Origin: Nitrospinaceae bacterium
GTDB taxonomy: Bacteria; Nitrospinota; Nitrospinia; Nitrospinales; Nitrospinaceae
Assembly: GCA_029261395.1 (NCBI GenBank)
Contig: JAJDBJ010000001.1
Coordinates: forward strand, 1 to 35,383
Length of the DNA: 35,383 bases
Reading direction: 5' to 3'
Under the pieces are notes generated by a model. That model ran no database searches and was not told where the DNA came from. It saw only the letters and a list, made by a program, of their open reading frames with translations. The stretch's first letter is position 1. The number at the start of each line of letters is the position of its first letter. Positions 710 to 30,315 of the stretch are shown here, one piece after another. Position numbers and translations under genes: made by a program.

Positions 710-760
710 ATTTGTATCTCAATCCAAAAGTTTTCGTTTTACTCGATGGTAGTCAAATTT

Positions 761-2698: not shown

Positions 2699-2727
2699 TG
2701 TTGGCTACCTTGTTGCTTAGAGTAAAG

Positions 2728-4866: not shown

Positions 4867-4965
4867 AGTTGTTGTCTCTAAAACATCCTTAAGCGAGTAG
4901 AAAACCTCAGCTAAAGGGCAGGCTCAATTGTAATATTCATTCTAAGTGTTGGCGTTATTGTGTTA

Positions 4966-6315: not shown

Positions 6316-6318
6316 GGC

Positions 6319-7137: not shown

Positions 7138-7604
7138 GTTTTCTAAACTCTTTGGTAAGCGGATATTAATGGGGCGCCGGTTTCATCAGGTATTTTTCTT
7201 TTGGATCCCTCCCCTTGGATGCCTTGGCAGTGGAATGCTAAATGTGCTCCCCTATTTTTCACAATCTTATGGGAAAACCCCCACATGGGCAAGCATTTTG
7301 ATCCTTTAGGAAATTTGGCTAAGATAGCTTTGGTGTCGCGTAAAACTCTATAAATTCAATATGTTACTGAGGGCTTACTGTGGAAAAGAGAGGAGGTCGA
7401 AGAGATTAAGGGGAGAGGCACTACTATCAATAGCAGATCAAGTAGAAAACCCAGCGAACGACGAATGATTATCGACCAACCAATAAGGTGCCTTAGGCGA
7501 TTGCTACAGCCACCATTATCTGTAAAGCAACTTTCCATCCTCTCAGTAAAAGGGTTCTCCGTGGGTCTGCCTGCTCAAAAACAGGGGAGGGGTGTTGCAA
7601 AAAA
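7138..7604. other. Intergenic stretch, no supported gene
   Basis: This 467-base gap separates the 5' end of the glycan operon (leftward) from the 3' end of the DUF2235 gene (also leftward). Short open frames exist on both strands but none has a convincing ribosome-binding site or family motif. A promoter for the glycan operon is expected near 7140-7300, but I do not see a clear -35/-10 pair. No strong terminator for the DUF2235 gene is obvious. Confidence 0.5.
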
Positions 7605-9782: not shown

Positions 9783-9793
9783 CTTAATGAAGG

Positions 9794-10117
9794 TTGCCTG
9801 TTTCCAAAAAGAAAAAAGGCCTGTCGGGTAATCCCGCACGGACGGTAGATGATTTAAAGTACAATAAGGGAGTCAAAGACCCACGCGATAAAGTGGTAGC
9901 CCATACTTGGAGGCACACTTTTGCAAGCTGGTTGGTTATGGAAGGGGTGCCTTTGCCGACGGTTCAAAAGCTAATGGGGCATCAGACCCTTGAAATGACC
10001 CTGCGATACGCTCACTTGGCCCCCAGCCATGAGCGGGAAGCGGTGGAGAAAATCTCAATAGGGCTTTCGGAGCCCAAGGTTATCCCAATCAAGAAGAAGA
10101 AACGGAAGCGGAAGTAA
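9794..10117 (+). pseudogene. Tyrosine recombinase (phage-type integrase), C-terminal remnant
   Basis: The translated stretch contains DPRDKVVAHTWRHTFASWLV, then KLMGHQTLEMTLRYAHLAP. These are the C-terminal catalytic boxes of tyrosine recombinases: HxxR, GH about 24 residues later, and the nucleophile Tyr in RYAH. The first catalytic Arg, the core-binding domain and the arm-binding domain are missing. The frame only opens with a TTG just after a stop codon, directly behind the HEGGH gene. A full integrase is 300-400 residues; about 107 remain, so this is a truncated, presumably inactive, relic. It lies at the left edge of the large metal-responsive gene block and suggests that block arrived by site-specific integration. 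The Lys/Arg-rich tail (KKKKRKRK) is unusual. Confidence 0.85.
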
Positions 10118-10423
10118 TTTCCAGCCGACAAAACGGAACCCTTACAACCTTACGAAATAAACGAATTTAACGAAATAAGGTCATTCCTCTGCATTTCTCC
10201 TGCTGTCTGAAAGAAAGCCCTCTACCATAGCCGAAATTCTAATAAGTTGCTTCTATCATTTATTGTTTTCTAATGTGCCGAAAATAATAAATGTCTGCTT
10301 ATGGCCGGTTCCTGCCGATCGAAGCTGCTTGGCGAACGTATGCTTTATTTCCGTGAAGCTGATACAGCCACAGCATAAGGGTAGAGCGTTTAAGAGGCCA
10401 GCGAAGGGGCAGTCTCGGATGAA
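10118..10423. other. Intergenic stretch between integrase remnant and LRR gene, nothing recognised
   Basis: About 305 bases without a supported gene. It is AT-rich in its first half and lies at the likely left boundary of the leftward mer-like block. I looked for a copy of the tRNA-Arg 3' end that would act as an attachment-site duplication and did not see one. No clear intrinsic terminator for the leftward operon was found. Confidence 0.45.
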
Positions 10424-11488
10424 TTAATGAAATCCGAAAATGGTTTTTTTTAAATTTTGAAGAAATTTAGATGATTTAAGTTTTTTTTCACCAGTTGATC
10501 CTATTGAGTTCTCCTCCAATTGAAGAATTTCCAACTTCGCCAAATAGGGAGATTTGGCCAAAGCTTCTGCGCCTTCATCTCCAATGAAATTATAGTTTAA
10601 AACAAGTTCCGTTAGATTCTTCAGCTTATCTGATCTGGCAATGGTCAATGCTCCGTGATTGGTGATGTGATTTCTGGTTAAATTGAGGGACTTCAAACTC
10701 AACAGTTTTTGGGAATTAAAAATGTATTGAACTGCGGCGTCACTGAGATTATTTTCAGTCAGGTCCAACTCCGTTATCTGAGAAACAAACGGGGTTTTCA
10801 ATAAGGCCAAAACGCCCTGATCCCCAATATAATTGCCTGTTAAATTATTTAAGGCTCCTTTCTGATGCAATTTTTTGAATTGTTGCCGGAATTCAAATCG
10901 AATACATGCATCCTTTCCCTTTTGAGTCAGAGAATTATCCGTCATATACAATTTTTCCAGATTGGGAAGATTTGAAGTTTTGGTGATGGAAAAAGCTCCT
11001 GGATCTTCCACGCGGTTAAAACTGAGATTTAAACTTTTCAAATGGGCCAGGTTTTTGGAACGAGCCAGGGCGAAGGCACCGTCATTGCTGATTTTATTTC
11101 GGTATAAACTTAAATTTTCCAAAACGGGAAATGAGGTGGACTCTGCAAGAAATTGTGCGCCTTGGTTCCCTATTTGATTATGGCCAAGGTCCAGTGTTTT
11201 GAGGTTTTTTAAAAATACTGATTGGGATAAAGCGCGGATACCCTGATCGCTTATTCCGGTTTCGTATAGAACCAGGGTGTGAACTTTTTGAAGCAGAGGG
11301 GATTGGGACAGAAACTGCACCCCAGCATCACCGATGGTTCTGGACCTGATCTGGAGGACCTCTCCGTTCCTTTTAATCTTTTTTTGGACGTAATCGTGTA
11401 GCTGATCCAGGTTTGAAAAAGGCCTCGCGCTCACCGATATCAGGCAAACCAAAGACAAATAGAACGTCAATCTTAAAAATCTTTTCAT
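10424..11488 (-). CDS. Exported leucine-rich repeat (RNI-like) protein
   Basis: An N-terminal signal peptide (KRFLRLTFYLSLVCLISVSA) is followed by about a dozen 24- to 26-residue leucine-rich repeats. The pattern is L-x-x-L-x-L-x-x-N-x-I-x-x-x-G-A-x-x-[LI]-[AS]-x-S, for example LKTLDLGHNQIGNQGAQFLAES. This is the ribonuclease-inhibitor-like subclass, a curved protein-binding scaffold. One repeat near the middle is disturbed (KGKDACIRFEFRQQFKKLHQKG). It is the last gene of the leftward block, 39 bases after a DUF1566 gene. Related LRR genes occur at 19825 and 29531. It probably acts in the periplasm or at the surface as an interaction scaffold; partner unknown. Confidence 0.85.
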   Translation of the reverse strand: MKRFLRLTFYLSLVCLISVSARPFSNLDQLHDYVQKKIKRNGEVLQIRSRTIGDAGVQFLSQSPLLQKVHTLVLYETGISDQGIRALSQSVFLKNLKTLDLGHNQIGNQGAQFLAESTSFPVLENLSLYRNKISNDGAFALARSKNLAHLKSLNLSFNRVEDPGAFSITKTSNLPNLEKLYMTDNSLTQKGKDACIRFEFRQQFKKLHQKGALNNLTGNYIGDQGVLALLKTPFVSQITELDLTENNLSDAAVQYIFNSQKLLSLKSLNLTRNHITNHGALTIARSDKLKNLTELVLNYNFIGDEGAEALAKSPYLAKLEILQLEENSIGSTGEKKLKSSKFLQNLKKTIFGFH

Positions 11489-11527
11489 AATTTAAAATCT
11501 TATAATCTCTGATTATTTTTGAGAGTT

Positions 11528-12094
11528 TTACCGATTTCTATGAGTTTTACTCTCACCAACAGGACCACGAACGAGTCGAACGAAAGCATCTTGGCCTGTT
11601 AATTTATCCTGAAAAAATTTTCCGCCTTCATTCTTGAAGGAGACGGTCACCGCCTGATTCCCTTTTTCAAAACTGGTCCACGTAGACCAACCGGCTCCCT
11701 TGGGGAAAACCGGGTCCATAAAAACCTTATCCTGATCTTTATCAAAATTACGTTTTCTTGGATTATACAAGCTTTTCCCTTCCGCCGGTGTAGGCAGACG
11801 CCAATCGGAATAACCACTGAAATTTCTATTGTTCATACTTTTGGAAAATTCCTGCGCCGAGTACCAATTGACCCATTCTCTATTCAATTGCCAATAATCC
11901 AGTTTCATCCACATGAGGCGGGTCTGGGTATCCAGAATGGTCCCATCCCCCATATCCACCAATTGATTTCCTGAGGAGCTACCGGGGGCTTTCTTGTAGG
12001 CAACCTCATTCGCGAAACTCAATGAAGATCCAATGATGGAAAGAAAAATTATGACCATCAGGGAGGATATGAATTTTGAATGCATCATTCTCAT
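11528..12094 (-). CDS. Exported DUF1566 (Lcl C-terminal-like) protein
   Basis: After a signal peptide (FISSLMVIIFLSIIGSSLSFA) the protein reads DMGDGTILDTQTRLMWMKLD, then a WYSAQEF segment and YSDWRLPTPAEGKSLY. This is the typical DUF1566 order: 'D.GTV.D..TgLmW', then 'W..A..y', then 'g..DWRLPt..El'. DUF1566 is an extracellular or periplasmic domain related in fold to the C-type-lectin/FGE superfamily; its molecular role is not established. The ATG at 12094 is preferred over a TTG at 12100, although neither has a strong ribosome-binding site. It lies 22 bases after the cytochrome gene and is a diverged paralogue of the DUF1566 protein on the other side of that gene, so the pair may cap or accompany the cytochrome. 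Confidence 0.82.
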   Translation of the reverse strand: MRMMHSKFISSLMVIIFLSIIGSSLSFANEVAYKKAPGSSSGNQLVDMGDGTILDTQTRLMWMKLDYWQLNREWVNWYSAQEFSKSMNNRNFSGYSDWRLPTPAEGKSLYNPRKRNFDKDQDKVFMDPVFPKGAGWSTWTSFEKGNQAVTVSFKNEGGKFFQDKLTGQDAFVRLVRGPVGESKTHRNR

Positions 12095-12116
12095 AATCAA
12101 TTTATAAGTTTTGAAA

Positions 12117-13907
12117 CTATTTTTTTGAAAGGAGGTTCAATCGCTGCCAAACGCTGACTACCTTGCGTCCATTCCGGTCCTCTTTGTCACCATCCCAGAC
12201 GGCCAAAGCCACCAAAGCGGGTTCCTTCCTGTTCTGTAATCGGGCGTCCCAGTTCCCGGTATTTTTCAAGGAACGGATAAACACCACGGTCCATATCCCG
12301 TCCTCCCATTCTCCTTTGCCTTGCACATTTTGCAACTCAGGAAGCTGAGGGGTGATTGTTCCGAACCCTTCCGCGTTAAGTTCATCCACAGAGTTTTCTT
12401 GGTTTGATTGGAGGCGAACCATAGGGCTTGACATCACACCCCCGTAAACCAGGGCATCCATATCCACCCCACCTGTAGAATATTCATTATCTTCTAACGC
12501 CTCCAGCGTCTTCTCCAAACCGGCTTTCCAATGCCAGATATTTACCGGCTTGCCTCGGTTACCCATGCCAAAGAAAGGTTCGTTGTGTCCATGGGTGTGC
12601 AGGGTGACGCCGCCCAGCGCGATTTGAACGGCCACCCCGTCCTGATACACATCTCCCCGGTTTTCGACAAACCCATTCCTGGTGGGGTCTTCCCAACGTA
12701 AACGGATGGCGATATCCTCTCCGTTATTCACCGATGCGAAATTGATCGTTTCCACGGCTCCCCGGCGTGCCGAAAGCGGTCTCAAGTGCAGGTCCGTACT
12801 TCTCACTCCTTCCCAGACCGGGCTGTTGGGATCGGTCGTTAATTCAGATTCCTTCAAATAGGAAAACAGGTCGGTTTCATATTTGGCTTCTTTGTATTCT
12901 TTATTGAATCGGGATCGAATGAAATGGACCAGGGCCCATCGATCTTTTTCCGGAAGCATGGCGTAAGATTCCATCGGTGTACCATCCAGGCCCGTAGTGA
13001 TAGTCTGGTAAAGGTCGTTGGGTTGGTGTCCCGATTTCAAATAGTTTGGATTGGTGATGTCATGCACGAACACGGCATGCTTCCACGCATCCATCAGTGA
13101 ATTAGCGACCTTCCCGTCCCCTTTTAAGGATTCACCGTGGCAGTTAACGCATTTGTGTTTATTGAACAATTGCTTACCTCGTTTAATAAGATCGGGAGAG
13201 GAAGCGAGGGGATTTATGGTAATAGGTTTCCCTGGAGGTTCTTCGCGAAAACGTGTGGAAAAACTTTTAATCAAGTTCACCAGAGCCCACGTGTCCTGCT
13301 GAGAAAGAGCGGCCTCCCAGGCCGGCATGGACGTTCCGGGAACCCCTCGGACGATGGTGCGGTAGAGGTCCTCATCGCGGGGCAGGGTGCCCGTGGGAGT
13401 CGAGCGGAACTTAAAAATACCCTTCCGGAAATCCCGGGGCCAGGGGTAAAGATAGTCAGTGGCGCTCCCACCGCCGTTGCCGTCCTTGCCATGACAGAAA
13501 GAGCACATATGCTGGAAAATATTTTGGCCCCGAGCGAGGAGCGCTTGCCCCTGGGTCAGAGAAGGGGACGGACTCATCAAATCATGGGCACCCCGTGTGA
13601 AAAAAGCTTTCCCTGAATCATGGGCCTGTCCATGCTGCATGTGGTCTGAATGCGTCATTTCATGAGGCTCCTTCCGGGTAGGGACGGGTTCCTCATATTC
13701 GGACCCGGGAGACACCGGCTGATCCCCTTTATACTCGATCATGCCCTTAGGTTTGGGTTCCAGTTTTTCCAAATCATGTTTACTTCCTCCAGCACCGTGG
13801 GAACGCACGGAGGAAGGGGCGGCTATGATCCAAATCCCCATCAGCAGGATTGTAAATGAGATTTTTAAAATTCCGAAGCCGAAGTTATTTTTTTGATCGA
13901 AGTACAT
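12117..13907 (-). CDS. Exported diheme cytochrome c fused to a heme-b-binding EB_dh-type domain (NxrC/EbdC-like)
   Basis: From the ATG at 13907 (preceded by AAAGGA) the 596-residue product has a signal peptide ending near SSVRSHG. Two class-I cytochrome c domains follow, with CSFCH at about 134-138 and CVNCH at about 252-256. Candidate distal Met ligands are in TSMPAW (about 193) and GTPMESY (about 311). From about residue 365 the protein matches the gamma subunit of ethylbenzene/dimethylsulfide dehydrogenases and nitrite-oxidoreductase NxrC: RLRWEDPTRNG, VYQDGVAVQIAL, FFGMGN, IWHWKAG and a final VVFIRSL region. The Met of FFGMGN and Lys of WHWKAG, 13 apart, are plausible axial heme-b ligands, as in EbdC. 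The open frame extends further upstream, but into the preceding gene. No catalytic molybdenum or Fe-S subunit lies nearby, so it may act as a stand-alone periplasmic electron carrier. Confidence 0.87.
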   Translation of the reverse strand: MYFDQKNNFGFGILKISFTILLMGIWIIAAPSSVRSHGAGGSKHDLEKLEPKPKGMIEYKGDQPVSPGSEYEEPVPTRKEPHEMTHSDHMQHGQAHDSGKAFFTRGAHDLMSPSPSLTQGQALLARGQNIFQHMCSFCHGKDGNGGGSATDYLYPWPRDFRKGIFKFRSTPTGTLPRDEDLYRTIVRGVPGTSMPAWEAALSQQDTWALVNLIKSFSTRFREEPPGKPITINPLASSPDLIKRGKQLFNKHKCVNCHGESLKGDGKVANSLMDAWKHAVFVHDITNPNYLKSGHQPNDLYQTITTGLDGTPMESYAMLPEKDRWALVHFIRSRFNKEYKEAKYETDLFSYLKESELTTDPNSPVWEGVRSTDLHLRPLSARRGAVETINFASVNNGEDIAIRLRWEDPTRNGFVENRGDVYQDGVAVQIALGGVTLHTHGHNEPFFGMGNRGKPVNIWHWKAGLEKTLEALEDNEYSTGGVDMDALVYGGVMSSPMVRLQSNQENSVDELNAEGFGTITPQLPELQNVQGKGEWEDGIWTVVFIRSLKNTGNWDARLQNRKEPALVALAVWDGDKEDRNGRKVVSVWQRLNLLSKK

Positions 13908-13941
13908 GGCATATTCCTTTTTGTTTAACAACCCCACAGGA

Positions 13942-14454
13942 TTATTGGATTTTCCTGACCATTTTGACCCCTTGATCAAGATCACCCGTTTCCTTGAGGT
14001 TGAAATAATCTTCCTTTTGTCCCAATCCAAAATACCAGGCGTGATCCAAATTGCGTTCGTTGGAAGTCCACAGGTAATAGCATCCACCATCGGCAAACAC
14101 AGTGGGGAGTCCGATGGGTTCCCCATCTTTACTTTTGAGAGGCAGATTGGAGTCCCATATCCCGTGGAGTTCATCTAGGGTGGGGAGGCGCCAATCGTTA
14201 TAGCCAGCGAATCTCTCGCCATTTTTTTTATCCACGTATTCCCAAGCCTGGTACCAGGAAAGCCCTCTTTGAATATGCCTGAAGGAATCCCCTTTTTGCC
14301 ACATGAGACCGGTTTGCAGGTCGGATACCGTGCCATTGCCGTTATCTTGGAAACGCACGGTTTCTGGCATCCCAACTACAGGAATGAGGAGGGCGCACAG
14401 CAACCCTCCAAAAACACTTATAGCTTTGAAGTACCCAGGAATCGAACGTCGCAT
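13942..14454 (-). CDS. Exported DUF1566 (Lcl C-terminal-like) protein
   Basis: A signal peptide (residues about 1-30) precedes a single DUF1566 domain: NGNGTVSDLQTGLMWQKGD, SWYQAWEYVD, FAGYNDWRLPTLDELHGIWD, then a W-T-S-N segment near the end. The domain is complete at 170 residues. The start lies only 4 bases after the stop of the upstream unknown gene, with AGG in between, and the stop is 34 bases before the cytochrome ATG, so all are co-transcribed. It shares the domain but little exact sequence with the copy at 11528-12094. No catalytic residues are known for this family; a structural or ligand-binding role is likely. Confidence 0.82.
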   Translation of the reverse strand: MRRSIPGYFKAISVFGGLLCALLIPVVGMPETVRFQDNGNGTVSDLQTGLMWQKGDSFRHIQRGLSWYQAWEYVDKKNGERFAGYNDWRLPTLDELHGIWDSNLPLKSKDGEPIGLPTVFADGGCYYLWTSNERNLDHAWYFGLGQKEDYFNLKETGDLDQGVKMVRKIQ

Positions 14455-14458
14455 AAGC

Positions 14459-14911
14459 CTAAAGCTCTTTCAGTAATTGATCCAGATTGTTGCTCAAATG
14501 ATCCAAACTCAACTGAATCTTTTTTATAGGAGTCCGTCCGGGAACCCTATTTTTAATGGCTCGCGCCTCGCCGAATCTTTGCTGGATCCGATCAAAAAGT
14601 TCCAATTGGGATTTCCCTGGAGGATTTCCGTTGCATGAAGATTCAAAAGCAACGACGGCACGTTGCAGTTTGGTATCCAGCTGGAAGCCCAAGGTAGAAT
14701 TTTTTTGGAGAGTAGTCGTTTGTTCCATATATCCCCACAATCCGCCATTTTGTTGAATCAACTCATAATCCGCTCTTAGTTGTCTGGTCTTCTCCGCGCA
14801 GGAACTGCCTGCCTGAACAGGAAGAACAAAAGCCCACGCAAAAAACACTGAAAAAATCACGGTTGCAAATACAACCATGTAAAGGTTGCGATTATCAATA
14901 TTAGAAGTCAT
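14459..14911 (-). CDS. Small exported protein of unknown function
   Basis: I do not recognise this family. From the ATG at 14911, which has a good AGAAAGGA site, the 150-residue product has a signal peptide or N-terminal membrane segment (LYMVVFATVIFSVFFAWAFVLPVQA). A mostly helical, Gln/Leu-rich mature part follows, with two cysteines about 55 residues apart (SSCAEK and SSCNGN) that could form a disulfide. The open frame continues upstream to 15010, but that part overlaps the metal-binding gene and has no better start. The real ATG overlaps the preceding gene by 11 bases, and the next gene starts 4 bases after its stop. This indicates tight co-translation and a role with its neighbours. The length and helical pattern would suit a small periplasmic sensor or chaperone, but there is no direct evidence. 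Confidence 0.65.
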   Translation of the reverse strand: MTSNIDNRNLYMVVFATVIFSVFFAWAFVLPVQAGSSCAEKTRQLRADYELIQQNGGLWGYMEQTTTLQKNSTLGFQLDTKLQRAVVAFESSCNGNPPGKSQLELFDRIQQRFGEARAIKNRVPGRTPIKKIQLSLDHLSNNLDQLLKEL

Positions 14912-15257
14912 GTTCAATTCCTTTCTGTATAAGGCTTTCCAACGACACTGGTGAATTTTTAAAATCGTTGATACAGCAGGGACAACGGCAAAAATAAATC
15001 GATTCACCATTGATGCTGATGCACAATGTCTGCCCTCTTGTCTTTTCCCCCAAGCAGGTGGGACAAATCACCATATCTTTGATTTCCTCCAAATAAAGTT
15101 GGGGGTTTTCCAAAAAGGGAATGACGCATCCCTCACAGCAGAAGCGATACTCCTGGCCCTGATAGTCGGTACTGGGGGCTGTCAATGGGTCGATCCCCAG
15201 CCGGACAAGGGCAACATCCACAAGTAGGGCATAAATATCCCTGATTTTGTCTAACAA
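14901..15257 (-). CDS. TRASH/YHS-type metal-binding protein, probably frameshifted near its N-terminus
   Basis: The 118-residue frame contains YQGQEYRFCCEGCVIPFLENPQLYL, matching the TRASH/YHS pattern (Y-x-F-C-C-x-x-C-x-x-x-F-x-x-N-P), then a CPTC pair and a second Cys cluster, IYFCRCPCCINDF. Such modules bind soft metals and occur in copper and mercury resistance proteins. The frame starts only at a TTG (15257). A better start exists in another frame: ATG at 15264 with an AGAGGG ribosome-binding site, encoding GYLCPTCGCCPCPAG. That supplies the missing N-terminal CxxC of the YHS motif before running off frame at a GGGG run (plus strand 15195-15198). Losing one G would join the two into a single cysteine-rich protein of about 120 residues. 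So this is either a real frameshift mutation, a sequencing error, or programmed slippage. Confidence 0.72.
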   Translation of the reverse strand: MLDKIRDIYALLVDVALVRLGIDPLTAPSTDYQGQEYRFCCEGCVIPFLENPQLYLEEIKDMVICPTCLGEKTRGQTLCISINGESIYFCRCPCCINDFKNSPVSLESLIQKGIEHDF

Positions 15258-15286
15258 GACTCATGAGACCCTCTTTCAAAATTTCA

Positions 15287-15350
15287 AAATCCCCCAACGC
15301 GATTCATTTAGGGAGGGAGACCAACCCTTCATAAAAGGGTTGGGGGATTT
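15287..15350 (-). promoter_or_regulatory. Intra-operon RNA hairpin with two mutually exclusive folds
   Basis: A perfect 12-base inverted repeat (AAATCCCCCAAC at 15287-15298 against its complement at 15339-15350, plus-strand view) encloses 40 bases. Inside, CCAACCCTT at 15321-15329 pairs with AAGGGTTGG at 15335-15343, sharing bases with the outer stem, so only one fold can form at a time. It sits in the gap between the FGE-like gene and the metal-binding gene. There is only a weak U-rich tail (ATTTTGAAATTTTG), so it could be an attenuator, an mRNA processing or stability site, or a leaky terminator. Confidence 0.5.
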
Positions 15351-16614
15351 ATTTCAAATCGGCGGCACAGCGAAATCCCACACCTTCGATACGATAATCA
15401 GGTTGAAATCCCTTACGGTTAGCGGACCGGATCGCGAACCCATCATTTTCCCAGGCCCCGCCCCGGACCACTTTCCATTCTCCATATCCGGGCCCTTTGG
15501 GGTTGTTTTTAGGACTCACTCTGTAATAGCCTTCCATCATCCAATCCGACACCCACTCGCTGACATTACCGGACATGTCATAAAGTCCAAACGGGTTGGG
15601 AGCAAAGGAGCCGATCGGAGCGGTGTGTTTAAAACCATCTGAAACATCCACGAGCCTTAAATTGAGTTCGCAGTAACTGTCACAAAAGTTAGCTTGCTTC
15701 GAACCGACTTTATCGCCCCAGTAATATTCCGTCGAAGTCCCCCCACGTACCGCGTATTCCCACTCCGCTTCCGTTGGAAGACGCCTACCCTGTTTTTTGC
15801 AATAGGCATCCGCTTCCACCCAGGTGACACTATCCACAGGAAGTAACGGCCCCCTGAAGCGTGAGGGGTTATCACCTGTACTCAATAGAAAATTCCGTTG
15901 TGAAACCTCATACCGGTCAATTTTAAAGGGAGAGATGCAAACTTCATGCATGGGAGCTTCATCGACTTCTCCCTTGTTACTTCCCATCAGGAAACAGCCT
16001 CCTTTAAGTTCGGCCATTTCCCCTGACTCGCCAGATACAGTAGCGACCAATTTATTTTCCACTTGGGCCTTCAATTTCACTACTTCGTCATAGATGGGTC
16101 GGGGTAAAGTTAAATATTTGATGCGGGTTTGACTTTTAGGAACCAGTTTTATCTCCCCCGACTCAAAAAAGAACAGGCGATATTGCTCCACCGGTTTCGT
16201 ATCCGCCGGATCCAAATAATTTCTCATATTATTTTTTCCTGTTTCGGACGAGACGACCACTTCATCAATCAACTCAGCTCCCAGAGGTTCCGGTTGTCCG
16301 TTCAAATAAACCAGAACTTTCCTTCGGGAGGAAACCTCCATCTCAAGAGCCCGGTCGATCAATGATTTAGCTTCTTTATATTTTCCTAATCGCATTTTGA
16401 CTTCCAAGAGAGGTTTCAAGACCCTGTAGTCATTTGTATTCTGTTTTAAAATCTCTGTAAGAATTTTTTCCGCCTTTGGAAGATCGCTTTTCGTGACGGC
16501 CTCGTTGGCCTGATCTATCTTTTGAGCGGTACTCCCAAAAACCACGCCATGCCCGGAAAAAACCAATGACAGGAAAATGATCAACCCATACTTATAGACC
16601 CTTGTTTGAAACAT
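15349..16614 (-). CDS. Exported TPR/FGE-sulfatase-like (SUMF1-fold) protein
   Basis: The order is a signal peptide, a short TPR-like helical region (about 30-95), a linker domain (about 100-190) with SQTRIKYLTLPRP, and a C-terminal FGE-sulfatase domain (about 203-421). The last shows MGSNKGEVDEAPMHEV, LPVDSVTWVEADAYCKKQGRRLPTEAEWEYAVRGG, GLYDMSGNVSEWV and VVRGGAW...GFRCAADLK. This is the SUMF1 fold, but the two catalytic cysteines of formylglycine-generating enzyme, expected just after GG-x-W, are absent, so it is unlikely to oxidise sulfatase cysteines. It may bind ligand or protein instead. ATG 16614 is chosen over an upstream TTG (16629); neither has a clear ribosome-binding site. It is a tandem paralogue of the next gene. 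Confidence 0.87.
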   Translation of the reverse strand: MFQTRVYKYGLIIFLSLVFSGHGVVFGSTAQKIDQANEAVTKSDLPKAEKILTEILKQNTNDYRVLKPLLEVKMRLGKYKEAKSLIDRALEMEVSSRRKVLVYLNGQPEPLGAELIDEVVVSSETGKNNMRNYLDPADTKPVEQYRLFFFESGEIKLVPKSQTRIKYLTLPRPIYDEVVKLKAQVENKLVATVSGESGEMAELKGGCFLMGSNKGEVDEAPMHEVCISPFKIDRYEVSQRNFLLSTGDNPSRFRGPLLPVDSVTWVEADAYCKKQGRRLPTEAEWEYAVRGGTSTEYYWGDKVGSKQANFCDSYCELNLRLVDVSDGFKHTAPIGSFAPNPFGLYDMSGNVSEWVSDWMMEGYYRVSPKNNPKGPGYGEWKVVRGGAWENDGFAIRSANRKGFQPDYRIEGVGFRCAADLK

Positions 16615-16686
16615 CGATGGCACTATCAAGATACGGCTCCAAAAAAGTTGAAAATACGATCCATTCTTAACGGCAGCCGGTAAATT

Positions 16687-18027
16687 TCATTTCACATCGG
16701 CGGCACACCGAAATCCAACTCCCTCAATCCGGTAACCGGGGTAAAACACCTTACGGCTGGAGGGACGAAGCATAAAGGCTGTTGTCTCCCACGCCCCTCC
16801 CCGCACCACTTTACGGCTGGCCGATCGTTCAGCCAGAAACAAACTGTCGGGCTCACCTTGCCCGGGTTTCTGGGAAATTTGAAGAAGAGCGCCTTTCGGG
16901 TTTTCTTTGGGGCTGATGATGTAATAACCTTCATGATAGGAATCAAACACCCACTCGCTGACATTACCAGCCATGTCATGGAGTCCGAACGGATTAGGAG
17001 AGAAAGATCCTATCGGCGCTGTATTTTTGAACCCATCCGAAATCTCCGGAGAGCGTACATTGAGAGCGCATTCCCGGTCGCAAAAATTGGCTTTTCCAGA
17101 TTCTATCTGTTCTCCCCAGTAGAATTCGGAAGTGGTGTTCCCCCGCGCCGCATACTCCCATTCCGCCTCCGTAGGCAGTCGCTTCCCGGACTTCTGGCAG
17201 TACTCGCTGGCCTCCATCCATGTCACGCTGTCTGCCGGAAGATTGGCCCCAGGAAATAACGAGGGGTTGCCATCCATTTTGGCCTGAAAATCTTTTTGTG
17301 TTACCTCGTACTTATCCATGGTGAATGAAGAAACACATACTTCATGCGCAGGTCTTTCGAGAGGACTGCCCTGGTCGCTTCCCATTTTAAAACAGCCCCC
17401 TTTGATGACGACCATTTCCACCGGCTTTCCAGCTTGAGCACTGGCAATCATCTTCTTTTTGACTTTTTCCCGTAATTCGACCACACGTTCCCGGATAATG
17501 CGGGGTATGCCGACATACTTGATACTGACCTGGCTTTTCGGGAAAAGTTTGACTTTTCCGTCATTCGACAGAAAGATGCGGTAATATTCCGTAGGCATTA
17601 ACATTTGATTTTTTATATAGGGGCTTGAGCTTTCTTCGCTGATTTCCATCTTCACCACGGTTTCGTCTACCAGCTCCCCTGAAATGGGCTCCGTTTTATC
17701 TTTCAAATAAATTAGAACCTGGCGTCCTCCTGTTACCTTCAACGCCAACAAACGATCTATCAAGTTATTTGCTTCCTTCACCTTTCCCAATTCGAATTTG
17801 ATTTCCGCAAGGGCTTTCATGGCTCTATAACCTTCCGGATTGGCCGCCGCCGCCTGGGTGAAGAAATTTTCCGCTAAAACTAATTTGCCTTTGGCCCGGG
17901 CTTGCTCACCCTTTGCTATAAGGTTTTCGCCTGCCCCAAATGCAGAAATCGGGGATACACTCACAGCCAACACAAACAAACAAAAGGTAACTATGTGAAT
18001 ACGGTGAGACTCAGGATAATTTTTCAT
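16687..18027 (-). CDS. Exported TPR/FGE-sulfatase-like (SUMF1-fold) protein, tandem paralogue
   Basis: It has the same architecture as the downstream neighbour: a signal peptide (HIVTFCLFVLAVSVSPISAFG), TPR-like helices (about 35-95: KGKLVLAENFFTQAAAANPEGYRAMKAL region), a linker with SQVSIKYVGIPR (about 165-176), then the SUMF1-fold domain from about 205 to 446. The latter contains MGSDQGSPLERPAHEV, RLPTEAEWEYAARG, GLHDMAGNVSEWVF, VVRGGAWETTAF and EGVGFRCAADVK. The FGE catalytic Cys pair is missing here too. Extra cysteines in NFCDRECALN are shared with the paralogue and may form a disulfide. Compared with that paralogue, an insertion of about 18 residues precedes VVRGGAW. The gap to the upstream gene is 45 bases. 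The duplication implies that two related binding surfaces are useful to the system. Confidence 0.87.
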   Translation of the reverse strand: MKNYPESHRIHIVTFCLFVLAVSVSPISAFGAGENLIAKGEQARAKGKLVLAENFFTQAAAANPEGYRAMKALAEIKFELGKVKEANNLIDRLLALKVTGGRQVLIYLKDKTEPISGELVDETVVKMEISEESSSPYIKNQMLMPTEYYRIFLSNDGKVKLFPKSQVSIKYVGIPRIIRERVVELREKVKKKMIASAQAGKPVEMVVIKGGCFKMGSDQGSPLERPAHEVCVSSFTMDKYEVTQKDFQAKMDGNPSLFPGANLPADSVTWMEASEYCQKSGKRLPTEAEWEYAARGNTTSEFYWGEQIESGKANFCDRECALNVRSPEISDGFKNTAPIGSFSPNPFGLHDMAGNVSEWVFDSYHEGYYIISPKENPKGALLQISQKPGQGEPDSLFLAERSASRKVVRGGAWETTAFMLRPSSRKVFYPGYRIEGVGFRCAADVK

Positions 18028-18072
18028 AGTTCGGTTCCCTATGTTTAAAAAAACTCAATAACTCTAACTCCT

Positions 18073-18405
18073 TCATTCACAACAAGACCCTTTCGTTTTG
18101 GCCTGGGCTAAGGCATTACGTATTAATGACTCCGGCGGAACCCCTTTTGGAGCCCCATCCACAGAATAAATTCTGCATTTCCGCCCATAACCCTGCTCGG
18201 CAATACCCTTTGCTTCAATATCCTGATTGTTGATCCTGATCGAAGGGGATCCCGCAAACCGAACTTCCTGGGCCATTGAATCCGAGACTACGTCGGTTTT
18301 TTTAACCGGCACGGTGATCCCTTCTTTTTCCATCATTTTTTCCAGAAGTTGAAGGGCGGGCTCATGATGGGGACAGCCTTCAAAATAAAGAAATTCGACT
18401 TCCAT
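18073..18405 (-). CDS. Thioredoxin-like 'DF' family protein with CPHH and C-terminal Cys-Cys
   Basis: The 110-residue protein opens EVEFLYFEGCPHHEPAL, a thioredoxin-fold start with Cys11 where a CxxC first cysteine (or selenocysteine in relatives) sits. RFAGSPSIRINNQDIE follows (the cis-Pro strand, 'GSPSIRI'), then YGRKCRIY (Cys77), and it ends with GSCCE. This matches small cytoplasmic proteins annotated as DF-family (seleno)proteins or alkylmercury-lyase-like thioredoxins, often near metal or metalloid genes. There is no signal peptide. The C-terminal vicinal cysteines would suit thiol-based metal transfer. A GGAG site precedes the ATG. Its place two genes below merP-like fits a cytoplasmic thiol partner of MerT, but that is inference. 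Confidence 0.75.
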   Translation of the reverse strand: MEVEFLYFEGCPHHEPALQLLEKMMEKEGITVPVKKTDVVSDSMAQEVRFAGSPSIRINNQDIEAKGIAEQGYGRKCRIYSVDGAPKGVPPESLIRNALAQAKTKGSCCE

Positions 18406-18464
18406 TTTTTATCTCCATCCAAATTATTTAAATTCACAAATGTTGCATTCGCTTCGTTGGCTAT

Positions 18465-19016
18465 TCAATAGGCCGCATAAACATCTGCGTGTTCCATCAA
18501 TTCGATCATTTCTATAAGGTCGATCGGGTCGAGGTTGGAGTCAATTTCTTCCGGTTCAATTTTATAAAGAAGCATCATGGTCCGGTTGATATACAGCTTG
18601 ACACCCAACTCTTTTAAAAAACCCAGATACTCCCCATAATTGTGAGGGATTTGTTCGAGCGGATAATCAAACTGTTGGGATAAAGCTTTTCTCTCCCGTT
18701 CCGGTAATTTGGCACGATCCATATCTGTTTTCGTTGAATCCCAGAACCCTTTCTTTTTTACCGAGGTCACCGCGCTACCATCAAACATCAGGATGACTTC
18801 ATGTCCTTTACTCAAAGCGGCCCAGGCCACGTTCGGAACCACGCAAATTTGAGCATCGTCCTCATCCAGAGAAGTTTTGACATGAAAGAGAAATGTTTGA
18901 GTTTTTGGGGAAGAAATGCCGTTATCCCCAAAAGAATTCTCCTCGGCCCCGACGGAGGAGGAAATAAGAAGGACCAAAAACAAAAAATTAAATATCTTTA
19001 CAATTAAGTGTTTCAT
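18465..19016 (-). CDS. Exported DsrE-family-like protein
   Basis: The start is taken at ATG 19016 behind a GAGAGAG site; an upstream TTG (19037) is less likely. A signal peptide (FNFLFLVLLISSSVGA) precedes a domain with FLFHVKTSLDEDDAQICVVPNVAWAALSKGHEVILMFDGSAV. This resembles DsrE/DsrF-like proteins (TusBCD fold), where a Cys after the first helix handles sulfur. The later YGEYLGFLKELGVKLYINRTMMLLYKI matches the 'elg.kly.c..s' region, although here the usual second Cys is Asn (YINR). DsrE-like proteins carry persulfide sulfur in sulfur relay or oxidation. A periplasmic copy next to mercury-transport genes could act on sulfide or thiols that bind metal. Function unproven. Confidence 0.72.
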   Translation of the reverse strand: MKHLIVKIFNFLFLVLLISSSVGAEENSFGDNGISSPKTQTFLFHVKTSLDEDDAQICVVPNVAWAALSKGHEVILMFDGSAVTSVKKKGFWDSTKTDMDRAKLPERERKALSQQFDYPLEQIPHNYGEYLGFLKELGVKLYINRTMMLLYKIEPEEIDSNLDPIDLIEMIELMEHADVYAAY

Positions 19017-19074
19017 ACAGTAACTCTCTCTCTTCAATCAAAATAATTTGTAAACATGAGTGATTATCCTCATC

Positions 19075-19473
19075 CTAGTTAAATAAACCAAAGAAACTAA
19101 AGCCAGCATCCGTGAGCAAAATCACCTCCCGGGGCTCGCCGACAGATAAAATCACCGCTCGAAATCCATCGCTTTTAAGAGCCGATACCAACTGAGCTCC
19201 TTCCACCTTTCCAGGAATGGTTTCAACTATCGTATGACTGCCCGCTTTATCAAACTGAGTCACCCGAGCGTCACGCACTCCCGGTAAATTTTTTAATGCT
19301 TTCCGGACATCCGGAATGCAAGTTCTGCATTTGAGACCTGTTACTTTAAGTTGATATTGCTGGAGCTTTTCCATTTTTAAGTTTTCCGCTGGTTCCGCTT
19401 GCAGGGGCCAGGGGTAAGAAAACAAAATCACAGCCGACAAAACGGCAATTTTATATTTTAAAAAGGTCTTCAT
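19075..19473 (-). CDS. merP: MerP-like periplasmic heavy-metal-binding (HMA) protein
   Basis: A signal peptide (about 1-26) leads into an HMA domain. QLKVTGLKCRTCIPDVRKALKNLPGV carries the metal-binding CxxC at 49-52 in the classic loop, and the ferredoxin-like fold continues to about residue 108 (LVSALKSDGFRAVI). MerP delivers Hg(II) from the periplasm to MerT. This protein is longer than MerP (132 against about 91) because of a 20-residue hydrophobic tail (ILLTDAGFSFFGLF) that might interact with the membrane. It is 6 bases downstream of merT, the standard merTP order. The symbol is given by context; Cu or other soft-metal binding is possible. Confidence 0.83.
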   Translation of the reverse strand: MKTFLKYKIAVLSAVILFSYPWPLQAEPAENLKMEKLQQYQLKVTGLKCRTCIPDVRKALKNLPGVRDARVTQFDKAGSHTIVETIPGKVEGAQLVSALKSDGFRAVILSVGEPREVILLTDAGFSFFGLFN

Positions 19474-19479
19474 TTTATT

Positions 19480-19809
19480 TCACCGAAGGTAGGGATAAAT
19501 AAAAAGAATGAGGGCAAGTCCCGTCGCGATCCAAAGGAATGTACCGTTTCTTTTCCGTTTCCTGGGCACCACCTCACAAGCGAGGGAGTTTTCTTTGTTT
19601 CCTTTTCGATAACGGATATAAAACGCTGTCCCCAACAACAGGAATGCCAGAACCATCATCGGCAAATGGAGAAAACCAAAGTCCCGGGCAAAACTGATGG
19701 CACCCACCCCAAATCCCAGTCCACCCAGAATAACGGGACCCACACAACAAACGGATCCCAGGACCGCCGCTGTAATGCCACCCAAACCTGTCAATTTTTC
19801 TTTGTTCAT
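19480..19809 (-). CDS. merT: MerT-like mercuric ion transporter
   Basis: MerT moves Hg(II) through the inner membrane from MerP to cytoplasmic thiols. The 109-residue protein has three membrane segments (about 8-40, 47-66, 90-107). The first contains the vicinal cysteines Cys21-Cys22 in GSVCCVGPVILGGLG, exactly the MerT TM1 motif. MerT normally has a second Cys pair in its cytoplasmic loop; here only one loop Cys (SLACEV, 78) remains. It is followed after 6 bases by the MerP-like gene. No MerA reductase is in the window, so the fate of imported metal is unclear. The start has an AGGA site. Confidence 0.88.
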   Translation of the reverse strand: MNKEKLTGLGGITAAVLGSVCCVGPVILGGLGFGVGAISFARDFGFLHLPMMVLAFLLLGTAFYIRYRKGNKENSLACEVVPRKRKRNGTFLWIATGLALILFIYPYLR

Positions 19810-19824
19810 ACTGCATTTTCCTGG

Positions 19825-20829
19825 TTAGAAAGGTTGTGGTCCACCCTCCATGCCATAGTGAGGATCCGTTTTTTCATACCGTTCAATCGTGTTGGTCAGA
19901 TTTTTCAAATTTTCCGATTTGTTCAATGCCTTGGCTCCAGATGCTCCAATATTATTTCCCCAAATATTCAAAATCCTCAGTTGGCTCAACATTGAAGACC
20001 CAGCAATGTCCAAAGCTCCTTGGGCCGTGATTTGATTCCAATCCAAATTTAACTCCTTCAGGTGAAGCAAAGCAGGTGATTGAGCCAAAAGCTTAGCTCC
20101 TGTATCCCCTATTCGGTTTCGCTTGAGGATTAATATTTTCAATGAGGTTTCCGTCGATATTTTATTAAGGACTTTCATGGCTTTCGGGCCGATGTTATTT
20201 CCCTGTAAGTTCAGGTGGACAAGATTTTTCATATATGGGGATCGAATAATGGCGATGAAGCCGTCATCCCCGATATTATTATTGGTCAGCTTAAGTTGCT
20301 TTAAGTTTTTGAAATTTTCCGATTGTGCCAATACCTGGGCTCCCTCCGGACCAATCTGGTTTTGAGAGAGATCCAAATATTTCAAATTACGTATGAATGG
20401 GGACGCCGCGAGCGCACTGATTCCTTCCGGCCCAATATGGTTTCCCCACAATTGCAATGAGGTGATAGATTTGAAGTTTTCAGATTGAGCAATGGCTTGA
20501 ATGCCTTTGGGGCCAACTTTATTGTGGTTTAAGCTGAATACTTTTAAGTTCTTTAGAAATTTAGATTCGGCCAGCGCCTTTGCCCCCTCATCTGTAATGT
20601 CATGAATCTCCAGGATCAATGTTTCCACTTTCCTAATCATGCGGGATTTGGCCAGTTTTTTAATGCCTTCATCACCTAAAACCCCACTGCGTTTCATGTT
20701 TAAATACTTACCCCCCTGCTTCAGGTCGCTGAAAATTGAAGGGTTGATGTCATAGGCCCAGGTGCAGGAAATCCCAGGCACCAGACTGCAAAACAAGATA
20801 AATAACAACTGGATTGATTTATTTTTCAT
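19825..20829 (-). CDS. Exported leucine-rich repeat (RNI-like) protein
   Basis: The start is set at ATG 20829, 13 bases after the stop of the NHL gene; a TTG at 20862 in the same frame would overlap that gene. A signal peptide (about 1-25, ending near GISC or TWA) may be lipoprotein-like but lacks a perfect lipobox. About ten 24-residue RNI-type repeats follow, such as LQLWGNHIGPEGISALAASPFIRNL. The consensus has L-x-L-x-x-N-x-I-G-x-x-G-A-x-x-[LI]-A-x-S, shared with the LRR proteins at 10424 and 29531. It lies directly before merT. Such arrays are protein-binding scaffolds; here it may organise the exported parts of the system. Confidence 0.85.
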   Translation of the reverse strand: MKNKSIQLLFILFCSLVPGISCTWAYDINPSIFSDLKQGGKYLNMKRSGVLGDEGIKKLAKSRMIRKVETLILEIHDITDEGAKALAESKFLKNLKVFSLNHNKVGPKGIQAIAQSENFKSITSLQLWGNHIGPEGISALAASPFIRNLKYLDLSQNQIGPEGAQVLAQSENFKNLKQLKLTNNNIGDDGFIAIIRSPYMKNLVHLNLQGNNIGPKAMKVLNKISTETSLKILILKRNRIGDTGAKLLAQSPALLHLKELNLDWNQITAQGALDIAGSSMLSQLRILNIWGNNIGASGAKALNKSENLKNLTNTIERYEKTDPHYGMEGGPQPF

Positions 20830-20842
20830 AGCTTCAATTAAC

Positions 20843-23008
20843 TTAAGGGAAATTATGGACAATTAAATTAACCTCCAGGCCTTCATGCAAATATCCTTTG
20901 TGTTCCTGTCCGGCAATGGTGGTAATAATTCCATTAAGATCGATTTTTCGGATACGATTGTTCACCCGATCCGTAAAATACAAATTACCCTGGGAATCAA
21001 ATACCATACTGTGGGGACTGTTCAATTGTGCCTTCGTGGCCGGGCCGCCATCGCCGCTGAATCCCATGGTTCCCGTACCTGCAACCTGATGAATATTTCC
21101 ATCCTTGTCAATTTTTCGGATGCTGTGAGCCCGCTCTTCTGCGATGTATAGCTCACCTGAAGGGGAAAATGCCAGATCTCCGGGAGACCGGATTCCTGCC
21201 GACAAAGCCGACCCTCCATTTCCAGTATCTTCAAAATCGCCATTCCCAGCGATGATGACCACCTCACCGTTTTTTGTAATTTTTCTGACTTTACTGCTTC
21301 CTATATCGGAGACATAAATGTTTCCTGAGGGATCCAGAACAATGCCATTGGGGCGAATGCTCCCATCTGCCAGAGCGCTCCAGTTTTTTTCGGCAACCCG
21401 GGTGATGATTCCCTGAGGGTCAATTTTTCGGATAAAGGGATTGGATGCGTCCGCCACAAATAAATTCCCATGCGGGTCCACAGCGATATCGCGAATAGCA
21501 TAAAAAGAAGCCTCCCGGGCCGGGCCGCCATCTCCTTTAGAACCCAGTAAGCTGTCTCCAGCAAACCAGGTGATATTGCCTTGGGAATCAATTTTTCTGA
21601 TTTTCCAACCGTTGCCAGACCGTGTCACTACAAATACATTATTATTGCTGTCCAAGGTCATTGCGGAAGGCCAATACAAGTCGGCTTTCTTTGCGGGTCC
21701 GCCATCCCCACTGTTCCCCGGTTTGCCGGTTCCGGCGAAATTGGTGATGAAACCGCTCGAATTAATTTTTCGGATTTTGTTGTGCATTTGATCCGCCACG
21801 ATCAGATTCCCTTTCTTGTCCATAATTAAACCCGAAGGGATTTCCAGCGTGGCCCCCAAGGCATACCCCTGATCGCCCTTACTCAAACTTTTTCCGTTAC
21901 CGGCAATCGTTTCTATGCGTTGACTCTGGAAATTCAATTTACGTATACGAAAATTTGAGCGGTCCACAATATAGAGATTTTTTTCATCTGGCGACAAGGC
22001 CAAAGCAAACGGCAAGTGCAAATTGGTTTGGGTGGCTAATCCCTGGTCGCCATTAAAATGGGTCTTCCCGGTTCCAGCGATGCTGGAGATGATCCCCAGG
22101 GGTGTGACTTTGCGGACCAGGCTGTTGTTCCTGTCAGCTATATAGAGGTTGCCTTTTTTATCAACGACAACATTGGTGGGGTAAGCTAGGTTGGCTTGGG
22201 TGGCAGGTCCTTGGTCACCACGAGAGGCAAATAAGCCATCCCCGGCCACGGTTGTTATGATCCCGTCGTTATCTACTTTGCGGATCTGGTTGTTTCCTCT
22301 GTCGGCAATGTACAAATTGCCCTGCTGATCTAAGGTAATCCCAAAGGGAAATTTCAAAAAGGCATCCAAGGCCAGGTCATTGTCTCCGCCAAACCAAGGC
22401 ACACCGAGACCGGCAAACGTGGTGATGATTCCGTGGAAATCCACTTTGCGAATACGATGATTGGAGCGGTCGGAAATGTACAGGTTGCCCTTGGCGTCGC
22501 AGGCCACATCAGAGGGCAAATTTAAACTCGCTTTGATGGCAGGTCCATCATCCCCATCAAAATCAGCAACTCCAATTCCGGCCACTGTGGTGATGATCCC
22601 CTGTGGAGATACCTTGCGAATACGGTGATTATTTCGGTCAGCAATGTATAAATTTCCCTTTTTGTCGAAAGTCAAACCGGCGGGGTTGTTCAAGGAAGCT
22701 TCCAGGGCCGGGCCACCATCCCCGTTGAACCCCGCCCCACCGTTTCCGGCGACAGTAGTGATGATTCCCTTTTTATCAATTTTTCTTATACGGTTTTTTG
22801 ATCGATGGGAGATAAAGATATTACCTTCGGAATCCACGGCTATACCATCGACCAGGCTTAAAATTACCGAGGTGGCCGGTTTTCCGTCTCCAATTACTGG
22901 AAAAGGATTTAATTCTTTATTGGCAAATACCTTGCCAGGGATTAAACTCCCGACAAAATAAAGGGCAATTGAAATTAAAAATAATGTTTTAATTTTTTTA
23001 ATAAACAT
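20843..23008 (-). CDS. Exported NHL-repeat beta-propeller protein
   Basis: After a signal peptide (KTLFLISIALYFVGSLIPGKVFA) the 721-residue protein is almost entirely NHL repeats, each about 55-58 residues. The core reads G-I-I-T-T-V-A-G-x-G, then GDGGPA, then L-x-x-P-x-x-[IV]-x-x-D-x-x-G-N-[LI]-Y-[IV]-[AS]-D, then N-x-x-I-R-K-[IV]. I count twelve units, enough for two six-bladed propellers. NHL propellers bind peptides, RNA or, in enzymes, metals and lyase substrates; here the 'GDGGPA' type is the common extracytoplasmic version of unknown ligand. It is the first gene after merR (34-base gap, CGAGG ribosome-binding site). The DNA is internally repetitive, which favours copy-number changes and misassembly. 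Confidence 0.9.
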   Translation of the reverse strand: MFIKKIKTLFLISIALYFVGSLIPGKVFANKELNPFPVIGDGKPATSVILSLVDGIAVDSEGNIFISHRSKNRIRKIDKKGIITTVAGNGGAGFNGDGGPALEASLNNPAGLTFDKKGNLYIADRNNHRIRKVSPQGIITTVAGIGVADFDGDDGPAIKASLNLPSDVACDAKGNLYISDRSNHRIRKVDFHGIITTFAGLGVPWFGGDNDLALDAFLKFPFGITLDQQGNLYIADRGNNQIRKVDNDGIITTVAGDGLFASRGDQGPATQANLAYPTNVVVDKKGNLYIADRNNSLVRKVTPLGIISSIAGTGKTHFNGDQGLATQTNLHLPFALALSPDEKNLYIVDRSNFRIRKLNFQSQRIETIAGNGKSLSKGDQGYALGATLEIPSGLIMDKKGNLIVADQMHNKIRKINSSGFITNFAGTGKPGNSGDGGPAKKADLYWPSAMTLDSNNNVFVVTRSGNGWKIRKIDSQGNITWFAGDSLLGSKGDGGPAREASFYAIRDIAVDPHGNLFVADASNPFIRKIDPQGIITRVAEKNWSALADGSIRPNGIVLDPSGNIYVSDIGSSKVRKITKNGEVVIIAGNGDFEDTGNGGSALSAGIRSPGDLAFSPSGELYIAEERAHSIRKIDKDGNIHQVAGTGTMGFSGDGGPATKAQLNSPHSMVFDSQGNLYFTDRVNNRIRKIDLNGIITTIAGQEHKGYLHEGLEVNLIVHNFP

Positions 23009-23042
23009 TTTTACCTCGAACCAAATTCAAATCTCCCTTGAT

Positions 23043-23453
23043 TCAAAAACTATTTTGGGATTCAAACTTGGAAAGAATAGGACAATCGTTTGTTGGGATC
23101 GCTTCTTCGCACTGTTTTATCAGCTCTTTAAGTGATTTTTTTATAATCCTTAAAGTTTTTATTTTGATTTCAACATCCTCCAACTTTGCCTGAGCTTTTT
23201 TCATGGCCCCTTCACAACTTTTATTTTTGTAAATCCGTAACTTCAATAATTCAAGAATTTCATTTAAGCTGAACCCCAATGTCTGCGCATTTTTTATGAA
23301 TCGAATCCTGGTGATATCCTCCTCCGTATAAAGCCTATACCCCGCCTCTGAGCGTTTAGGAGGGTCGATGAGTTTTCTTTTTTCGTAATACCTGAGGGCC
23401 TCAACATTCACGTCACATTTTTTAGCCAATTCCCCTCGTGTCATAGTTTCCAT
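23043..23453 (-). CDS. merR: MerR-family transcriptional regulator with Hg(II)-type cysteine triad
   Basis: The N-terminal winged helix-turn-helix is clear (TRGELAKKCDVNVEALRYYEKRKLIDPPKRSEAGYRLY), followed by a dimerisation helix and a short metal-binding tail. Cysteines fall at 80, 115 and 124. The spacings of 35 and 9 equal those of the three Hg(II) ligands of Tn501/Tn21 MerR (82, 117, 126). The 136-residue length is close to MerR (144). It is the first gene of the leftward block, and a MerR-type promoter with a 20-base spacer lies just upstream, so it is probably autoregulated and controls the whole block. Unlike classical mer loci, the regulator is not divergent from merT but co-directional. 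Confidence 0.9.
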   Translation of the reverse strand: METMTRGELAKKCDVNVEALRYYEKRKLIDPPKRSEAGYRLYTEEDITRIRFIKNAQTLGFSLNEILELLKLRIYKNKSCEGAMKKAQAKLEDVEIKIKTLRIIKKSLKELIKQCEEAIPTNDCPILSKFESQNSF

Positions 23454-23478
23454 ATCACTCTCCTAAGAACTCTGTTAA

Positions 23479-23510
23479 AAGATACACCCTGTATCTTAGT
23501 ACAATGTCAA
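23479..23510 (-). promoter_or_regulatory. MerR-type promoter and operator upstream of merR
   Basis: Read leftward: TTGACA (23510-23505), a 20-base spacer, then TATCTT (23484-23479) as -10. The perfect dyad AAGATAC-AGGGT-GTATCTT (23497-23479) covers most of the spacer and the -10. Over-long 19-20 base spacers with a dyad between the hexamers are the hallmark of promoters activated by DNA distortion by MerR-family regulators. The ATG of merR lies 26 bases downstream of the -10, behind AGGAGAG. Confidence 0.85.
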
Positions 23511-23885: not shown

Positions 23886-23962
<77 letters not shown>

Positions 23963-30271: not shown

Positions 30272-30315
30272 GACGTTACCTCTATGAGTTCGGTTGTTGA
30301 AAGGTCCACACTAAA

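Follow-up and report, generated by a model that had tools for sequence, protein, structure and literature searches.

A MerA-less, MerR-controlled row of fifteen genes with MerT- and MerP-like proteins and a nitrite-oxidiser-type cytochrome in a Nitrospinaceae genome

The window, that is, the whole stretch of 35,383 bases analysed here, is the entire contig C1 of a metagenome-assembled genome (G000; 2.94 Mb in 84 contigs, 97% complete) from a bacterium related to Nitrospina, which oxidises nitrite in the sea. This genome was compared with 76 other Nitrospinota genomes (77 phylum genomes including G000). Fifteen genes run along the minus strand between positions 10424 and 23453, behind a single MerR-type promoter at 23510-23479, as the original prediction had described. 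Their order is MerR, NHL, LRR1, MerT, MerP, DsrE-like, DF, FGE1, FGE2, YHS, HYP, DUF1566a, cytochrome, DUF1566b and LRR2. The genes are tightly packed, as predicted, although the spacing is somewhat wider ranging than the reported 11-base overlap to 84-base gap, with overlaps of 11 to 20 bases and gaps of up to 91 bases. Scans for internal promoters and terminators in the block gave results at chance level. By inspection, 11 of the 15 proteins carry export-type N-termini, MerT sits in the membrane, and the other three (MerR, DF and YHS) appear to be cytosolic. All of the listed genes are present, but three gene models needed revision: the starts of the cytochrome and HYP had probably been placed too far upstream, and the YHS gene appears frameshifted relative to its homologues.

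The first gene (23043-23453) encodes a MerR family regulator whose Cys80, Cys115 and Cys124 line up with the cysteines of the mercury MerR structures 4ua1 and 5crl, in agreement with the Hg-type triad initially noticed. This triad is no proof of mercury, since CadR keeps similar cysteines. The protein scored 128.9 bits with TIGR02051 (equivalog cut-off 150.85) and nearly the same with the ZntR model, and it stayed under every equivalog cut-off. Upstream of it, the promoter/operator (23479-23510, minus strand) consists of TTGACA and TATCTT separated by 20 bp, which fits the 19-20 bp spacing of mer-type promoters, and the spacer holds a TGTAC..TACAGGGT dyad. When up to three mismatches were allowed, the element gave two matches in the 2.9 Mb of G000 and the reversed element, used as a control, gave none in 12 genomes; the match is therefore not a chance one. 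The second operator site in G000, on contig C67, has the textbook half-sites TCCGTAC..GTACGGA, and behind this canonical operator (C67, 2465-5500) lie genes for a MerR, a thioredoxin-like protein, an HMA protein, a porin-like protein, an NHL protein and a symporter-like protein. The promoter element of the fifteen-gene row also precedes merR in G007, G016, G017 and G019, and in G076, which has a classical mer locus: there, merT, merP, a histidine kinase gene and a MerA-like gene whose product ends in SCCAE come after merR. In G018 and G044 it is found ahead of a merR that belongs to an HgcA-like cluster.

The original domain calls for the metal-binding and thiol proteins also hold, with the DsrE and HMA domains just under the Pfam cut-offs. 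The MerT-like membrane metal carrier (19480-19809) exceeded the PF02411 cut-off (37.9 against 32.9 bits) while remaining under the NCBIfam equivalog cut-offs, and alignment with relatives places a CC pair in its first helix and one Cys in a loop. Next to it, the MerP-like periplasmic protein (19075-19473) has a signal-like N-terminus and an HMA domain with the motif GLKCxxC, and is 49-70% identical to MerP-like proteins in five Nitrospinota genomes; it reached only 22.7 bits with the MerP model TIGR02052 (cut-off 92.55), and CopZ models fit it better. The exported DsrE-like protein (18465-19037; 21.4 bits with Pfam DsrE, cut-off 22.7) occurs in two of the 77 phylum genomes, G000 and G005 (88% identical); no relative was found among plasmids or in the PDB, and its predicted structure is poor. 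The thioredoxin-like protein (18073-18405) belongs to the DF family, scoring 102.6 bits against a curated cut-off of 70 for the DF family (seleno)protein model NF049942. Finally, the YHS/TRASH metal-binding protein (14901-15257; PF04945) appears frameshifted near its start when compared with its homologues, with a CPTCGC start lying upstream in another frame, which may reflect a mutation or an assembly error.

Several of the remaining genes encode exported repeat or scaffold-like proteins. These include an NHL-repeat beta-propeller protein (20843-23008; Pfam NHL/TEN_NHL), with further NHL proteins at MerR loci on C67 of G000 and in G008 and G016, and two leucine-rich-repeat proteins, LRR1 (19825-20862) and LRR2 (10424-11488), both matching Pfam LRR_6. 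FGE1 (16687-18027; Pfam FGE-sulfatase) is an exported protein combining TPR and the FGE fold, with 87% identical proteins in G005 and G006. The second FGE-fold protein, FGE2 (15349-16629), is about 51% identical to the FGE1 orthologues and, when aligned with 2aft, has a Cys at neither place of the catalytic pair; by inspection, FGE1 also has no catalytic Cys in the same motif. HYP, an exported helical protein of 150 residues (14459-14911, the latter being the likelier start), belongs to a Nitrospinota-wide family with homologues in 62 of the 77 phylum genomes; its predicted structure is confident (pLDDT 85) and the fold gave no significant PDB match. A further pair of LRR and FGE-fold genes lies at 29531-31092, adjoining aconitase-family (leuC/leuD-type) genes, and both families are scattered in the genome.

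Genes for two proteins with a Pfam Lcl_C/DUF1566 domain flank the cytochrome gene: DUF1566a (13942-14454), which is exported and paired with the cytochrome, and DUF1566b (11528-12100). The exported cytochrome itself (12117-13907, with 13907 as the likelier start) has two CxxCH haem c domains and a haem b domain of the ethylbenzene-dehydrogenase type (EB_dh), all with intact haem motifs, which confirms the diheme/heme-b assignment made earlier. It is alt_NxrC-like and matches subunit C of nitrite oxidoreductase (7b04_C) with an E value of 1.3e-26; no nxrAB genes are present within the block. Members of this cytochrome family were found in 74 of the 77 phylum genomes, whereas a search of viral contigs returned no relative. 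The DUF1566a-cytochrome pair has a paralogue at a separate core locus, on C54 of G000 and in four other genomes examined. In the cytochrome tree, the copy in the window forms an old separate branch inside the family, nearer to a sister genus than to the copies of its own genus (support 94/91), and this grouping with another genus of the family gives no support to a recent origin of the copy by duplication within its own genus's core cytochromes. Selenocysteine at an in-frame TGA of a cytochrome paralogue on contig C83 was considered and rejected, as the match ran through the terminal stop codon. In G001, three tandem identical GIY-YIG-like ORFs of 94 residues (9625-11033) are located just downstream of the core DUF1566-cytochrome pair.

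The block is bordered by a tRNA-Arg(CCG) gene (23886-23962, minus strand) at the edge of a stretch of lower GC content, with 53.2% GC to the right of the tRNA gene and 45.6% within the block. On the opposite side lies a C-terminal fragment of a phage integrase (9794-10117, plus strand; PF00589). Although the GC shift and the integrase fragment would fit the integration of an island at tRNA-Arg, we do not claim this, as no att repeat was found and the sequence left of the tRNA gene has no word of at least 11 bases in common with it. Elsewhere in the window, the product of a gene at 7605-8657 has a phospholipase catalytic domain resembling that of T6SS Tle1; this gene lies in a low-GC stretch that also holds ABC-transporter genes of the polysaccharide-export type.

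No MerA is encoded in the window, as originally reported, and the same holds genome-wide. Six proteins of G000 matched the MerA model, the best with 410.7 bits (cut-off 454.45), and none of the six exceeded the cut-off or carried the C-terminal vicinal Cys pair; reduction by MerA is excluded by this absence. The HgcA model gave no match in G000 and matched in eight other genomes, in every case under the HgcA cut-off. A merB gene, proposed to be sought elsewhere in the genome together with merA, was likewise not found, although this absence is weak because the MerB search matched no control genome either. With its Hg-type MerR cysteines, MerR-spaced operator and MerT- and MerP-like proteins, the locus resembles a mer operon. 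It differs in that it lacks MerA, the gene that defines mer; in that its MerP-like protein fits CopZ models better; in that MerR comes first in a co-directional row; and in that NHL, LRR, FGE, DUF1566, cytochrome and TRASH proteins are added. The view that this is not an ordinary mer operon is well founded: the block is a metal locus under MerR control that has no MerA and probably serves Hg or another soft metal. In a survey of 272 mer operons, the TRASH protein was never found in bacteria (PMC3466566). The mer locus of Sulfolobus shares a TRASH-type protein with our locus, but it is archaeal, has MerA, and lacks MerT and MerP (PMC3466566).

Comparison with relatives did not bear out the proposal that the fifteen genes form one conserved periplasmic redox system, since the part that recurs is a core of roughly six genes: MerR, MerT, MerP, DF, DsrE-like and FGE1, usually beside ahcY. 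FGE2, YHS, HYP, DUF1566, the cytochrome and LRR2 are joined to this core in G000 only. G005, G006, G007, G016 and G028 have metal genes from these same families in the interval from a haloalkane-dehalogenase-like gene to ahcY, or by whichever of these two the contig reaches. The arrangements are DsrE-DF-FGE1-DF in G005, MerT-MerP-DF-FGE1 in G006 (a genome of the same genus as G000), MerR-DF-Trx in G007, MerR-MerT-MerP-CopZ-Trx-HMA-porin-NHL in G016, and porin-HMA-NHL-DF in G028, followed there by a cupredoxin and an FGE gene on the opposite strand. At the corresponding site of G000 only a DF gene is left. FGE1, DF and DsrE are 87-88% identical to their counterparts in G005, where AhcY is 97% identical, and the neighbouring hydrolase is 83-85% identical to those of G007 and G010; given these values, the core has the appearance of a locus at the level of the genus, found at a different site in G000. 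The predicted synteny across genomes thus holds for the core and fails for the cytochrome half. The same split applies to the idea of a single system for a soft metal, which stands as regards the MerR-controlled core and falls short as regards the cytochrome part; NHL, FGE and HMA proteins, for their part, are found again at related loci with MerR or DF.

These comparisons put at about even odds a reading in which a metal core of MerR, MerT, MerP, DsrE, DF and FGE1 was joined by rearrangement to the cytochrome, DUF1566, HYP and LRR genes, which would be passengers merely sharing a transcript. The occurrence of the core without the cytochrome half in relatives, the core paralogue of the DUF1566a-cytochrome pair elsewhere in G000, and the scattering of LRR and FGE families, as seen beside the aconitase-family genes, all argue for it, and the lower GC content, the flanking tRNA gene and the integrase fragment suggest a rearranged region. 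Against this, gaps are short all along the row, several genomes have NHL and FGE proteins at their metal loci too, and the comparison with G005 and G006 is partial, as their core contigs are broken off and it leaves out NHL and LRR1. This reading is compatible with the metal-handling operon that we favour below and narrows its extent.

A working role for the cytochrome is possible, with co-location as its only basis and without synteny support. The alt_NxrC proteins of Nitrospina gracilis, which are proposed electron carriers, are likewise exported and combine haem c sites with a haem b domain of the DMSO-reductase type (PMC3578206), whereas the cytochrome described here sits in a metal operon, off the usual core locus. 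It might take an active part as an electron link between a metal site in the periplasm and the respiratory chain of nitrite oxidation, for example reducing Hg(II). We regard this as very unlikely: although the precedent of the alt_NxrC-type proteins, the old separate branch and the intact haem motifs are in its favour, the cytochrome is joined to the metal core in no other genome examined, and our literature search found no precedent for a cytochrome acting in such a metal system.

To which metal the locus responds is best addressed through the contexts of its MerR, YHS and DF families. HgcA-like clusters were seen in G018, G019, G027, G029, G037 and G044, and in Nitrospinota they comprise MerR, DUF169, sometimes a thioredoxin-like protein, a CpaM methyltransferase, the HgcA-like protein and a YHS/TRASH protein, the last occupying the place expected for HgcB. 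In G018, G019 and G044 these clusters have a MerR clade and an operator of the window's type, whereas in G024, G027 and G029 the merR gene is divergently placed, its product belongs to another clade and the operator differs. G019 carries a single row of MerR-DUF169-MerT-MerP-CpaM-HgcA-like genes, and G044 a row of MerR-DUF169-CpaM-HgcA-like-YHS (4392-7854). The window shares the YHS/TRASH protein with these clusters, the MerR clade and operator with those of G018, G019 and G044, and MerT-MerP with that of G019, but it lacks DUF169, CpaM and HgcA-like genes, and the genome of G000 has no HgcA-like gene. The HgcA-like proteins have a hydrophobic C-terminus and no ferredoxin motif, and the motif is NVWCAAA or NVWCAAC in the two whose full sequences were read; methylation by these proteins is unproven, as they fall under the HgcA cut-off and lack that motif. 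Our literature search found no paper on MerR with HgcA-like, DUF169 or CpaM clusters in Nitrospinota.

Homologues of the YHS protein (E <1e-20) were present in six other phylum genomes, all six of which have an HgcA-like gene, adjoining in five; the overlap with the seven genomes having strong HgcA-like matches has a P value of 3e-8, a figure that ignores shared ancestry. On the mercury-resistance plasmid pMR68 of Pseudomonas K-62 (PMC3737084), a YHS/TRASH homologue 43% identical to the G044 protein directly follows merB2, in a region that has no NHL, FGE or cytochrome genes. This 119-residue ORF (NC_019309, 4727-5086) is missing from the record's gene table. On the Streptomyces plasmid NZ_CP108626 (3501-4487), a protein annotated as alkylmercury lyase family has a DF-like region as its N-terminal part, and its gene adjoins that of a heavy-metal-responsive regulator. 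A short contig of G069 (438-3577) carries DF, ArsR, MerB-like, methyltransferase and HgcA-like genes, and other DF copies adjoin Cd, Cu and As genes. Because the MerR, YHS and DF contexts tie to HgcA-like and merB genes, mercury is favoured as the metal, short of proof.

The operon could instead sense Cd, Pb or Zn and export or buffer that metal, which would be consistent with a MerR triad like that of CadR, with the nearly equal scores of the ZntR and MerR models, and with DF in Cd, Cu and As loci. We consider this rather unlikely, as the block has no P-type ATPase or CDF exporter, a MerT family protein is present, and MerR and YHS are repeatedly linked to HgcA-like and MerB genes. In addition, by the rule derived from CueR-type sensors, the Cys80 equivalent counts against sensing of Cu(I) or Ag(I).

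The same contexts raise the question of decay. The nearest relative of the window's MerR (G044, 70% identical, same operator) heads an HgcA-like cluster, and in a tree placement without strong support the regulator is nearer to the MerR of such clusters than to that of its own genus. YHS, elsewhere always found with HgcA-like genes, is here alone and frameshifted. The locus might accordingly be the decaying remnant of a former HgcA-like-cluster locus, with MerR and YHS left over and other genes filling the gap, but this seems improbable to us: MerT, MerP, DF, DsrE, FGE1 and the haem motifs of the cytochrome are intact, and the frameshift could be an assembly error. Partial decay, on the other hand, is a live alternative, as the YHS gene appears frameshifted.

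On balance, we lean towards a MerA-less, MerR-controlled operon that would handle a divalent soft metal, most likely Hg(II), a view built on the sequence evidence above. Judging by protein families and gene context, metal-bound MerR would open the promoter and switch on the whole row, and the MerP-like and MerT-like proteins would bring periplasmic metal across the membrane. The small thiol proteins (DF, and the TRASH protein if functional) could buffer it and hand it on, while the exported NHL, LRR, FGE-fold and DUF1566 proteins may bind or shield metal at the envelope. Sequestration would be a likelier outcome here than MerA reduction. A more ambitious version, to which we assign little probability, has MerR-controlled Hg(II) capture coupled to the nitrite-oxidation electron chain through the alt_NxrC-type triheme cytochrome, which would replace MerA in metal redox; the locus would then represent one of two forms of a broader mercury regulon in Nitrospinota, the other ending in an HgcA-like protein.

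Metagenomic evidence has pointed to Nitrospina-like bacteria as possible methylators of mercury in seawater (PMC7347909, PMC8557936). From the sequences compared here, one MerR clade and its operator are common to MerA-less mercury-carrier loci and HgcA-like clusters in the phylum, which predicts that both kinds of locus share their inducing metal. Should this be Hg(II), the regulator would offer a direct handle on when the HgcA-like genes switch on. A metal operon with a copy of a nitrite-oxidiser cytochrome would, in turn, tie metal detoxification to nitrification in an unusual way.
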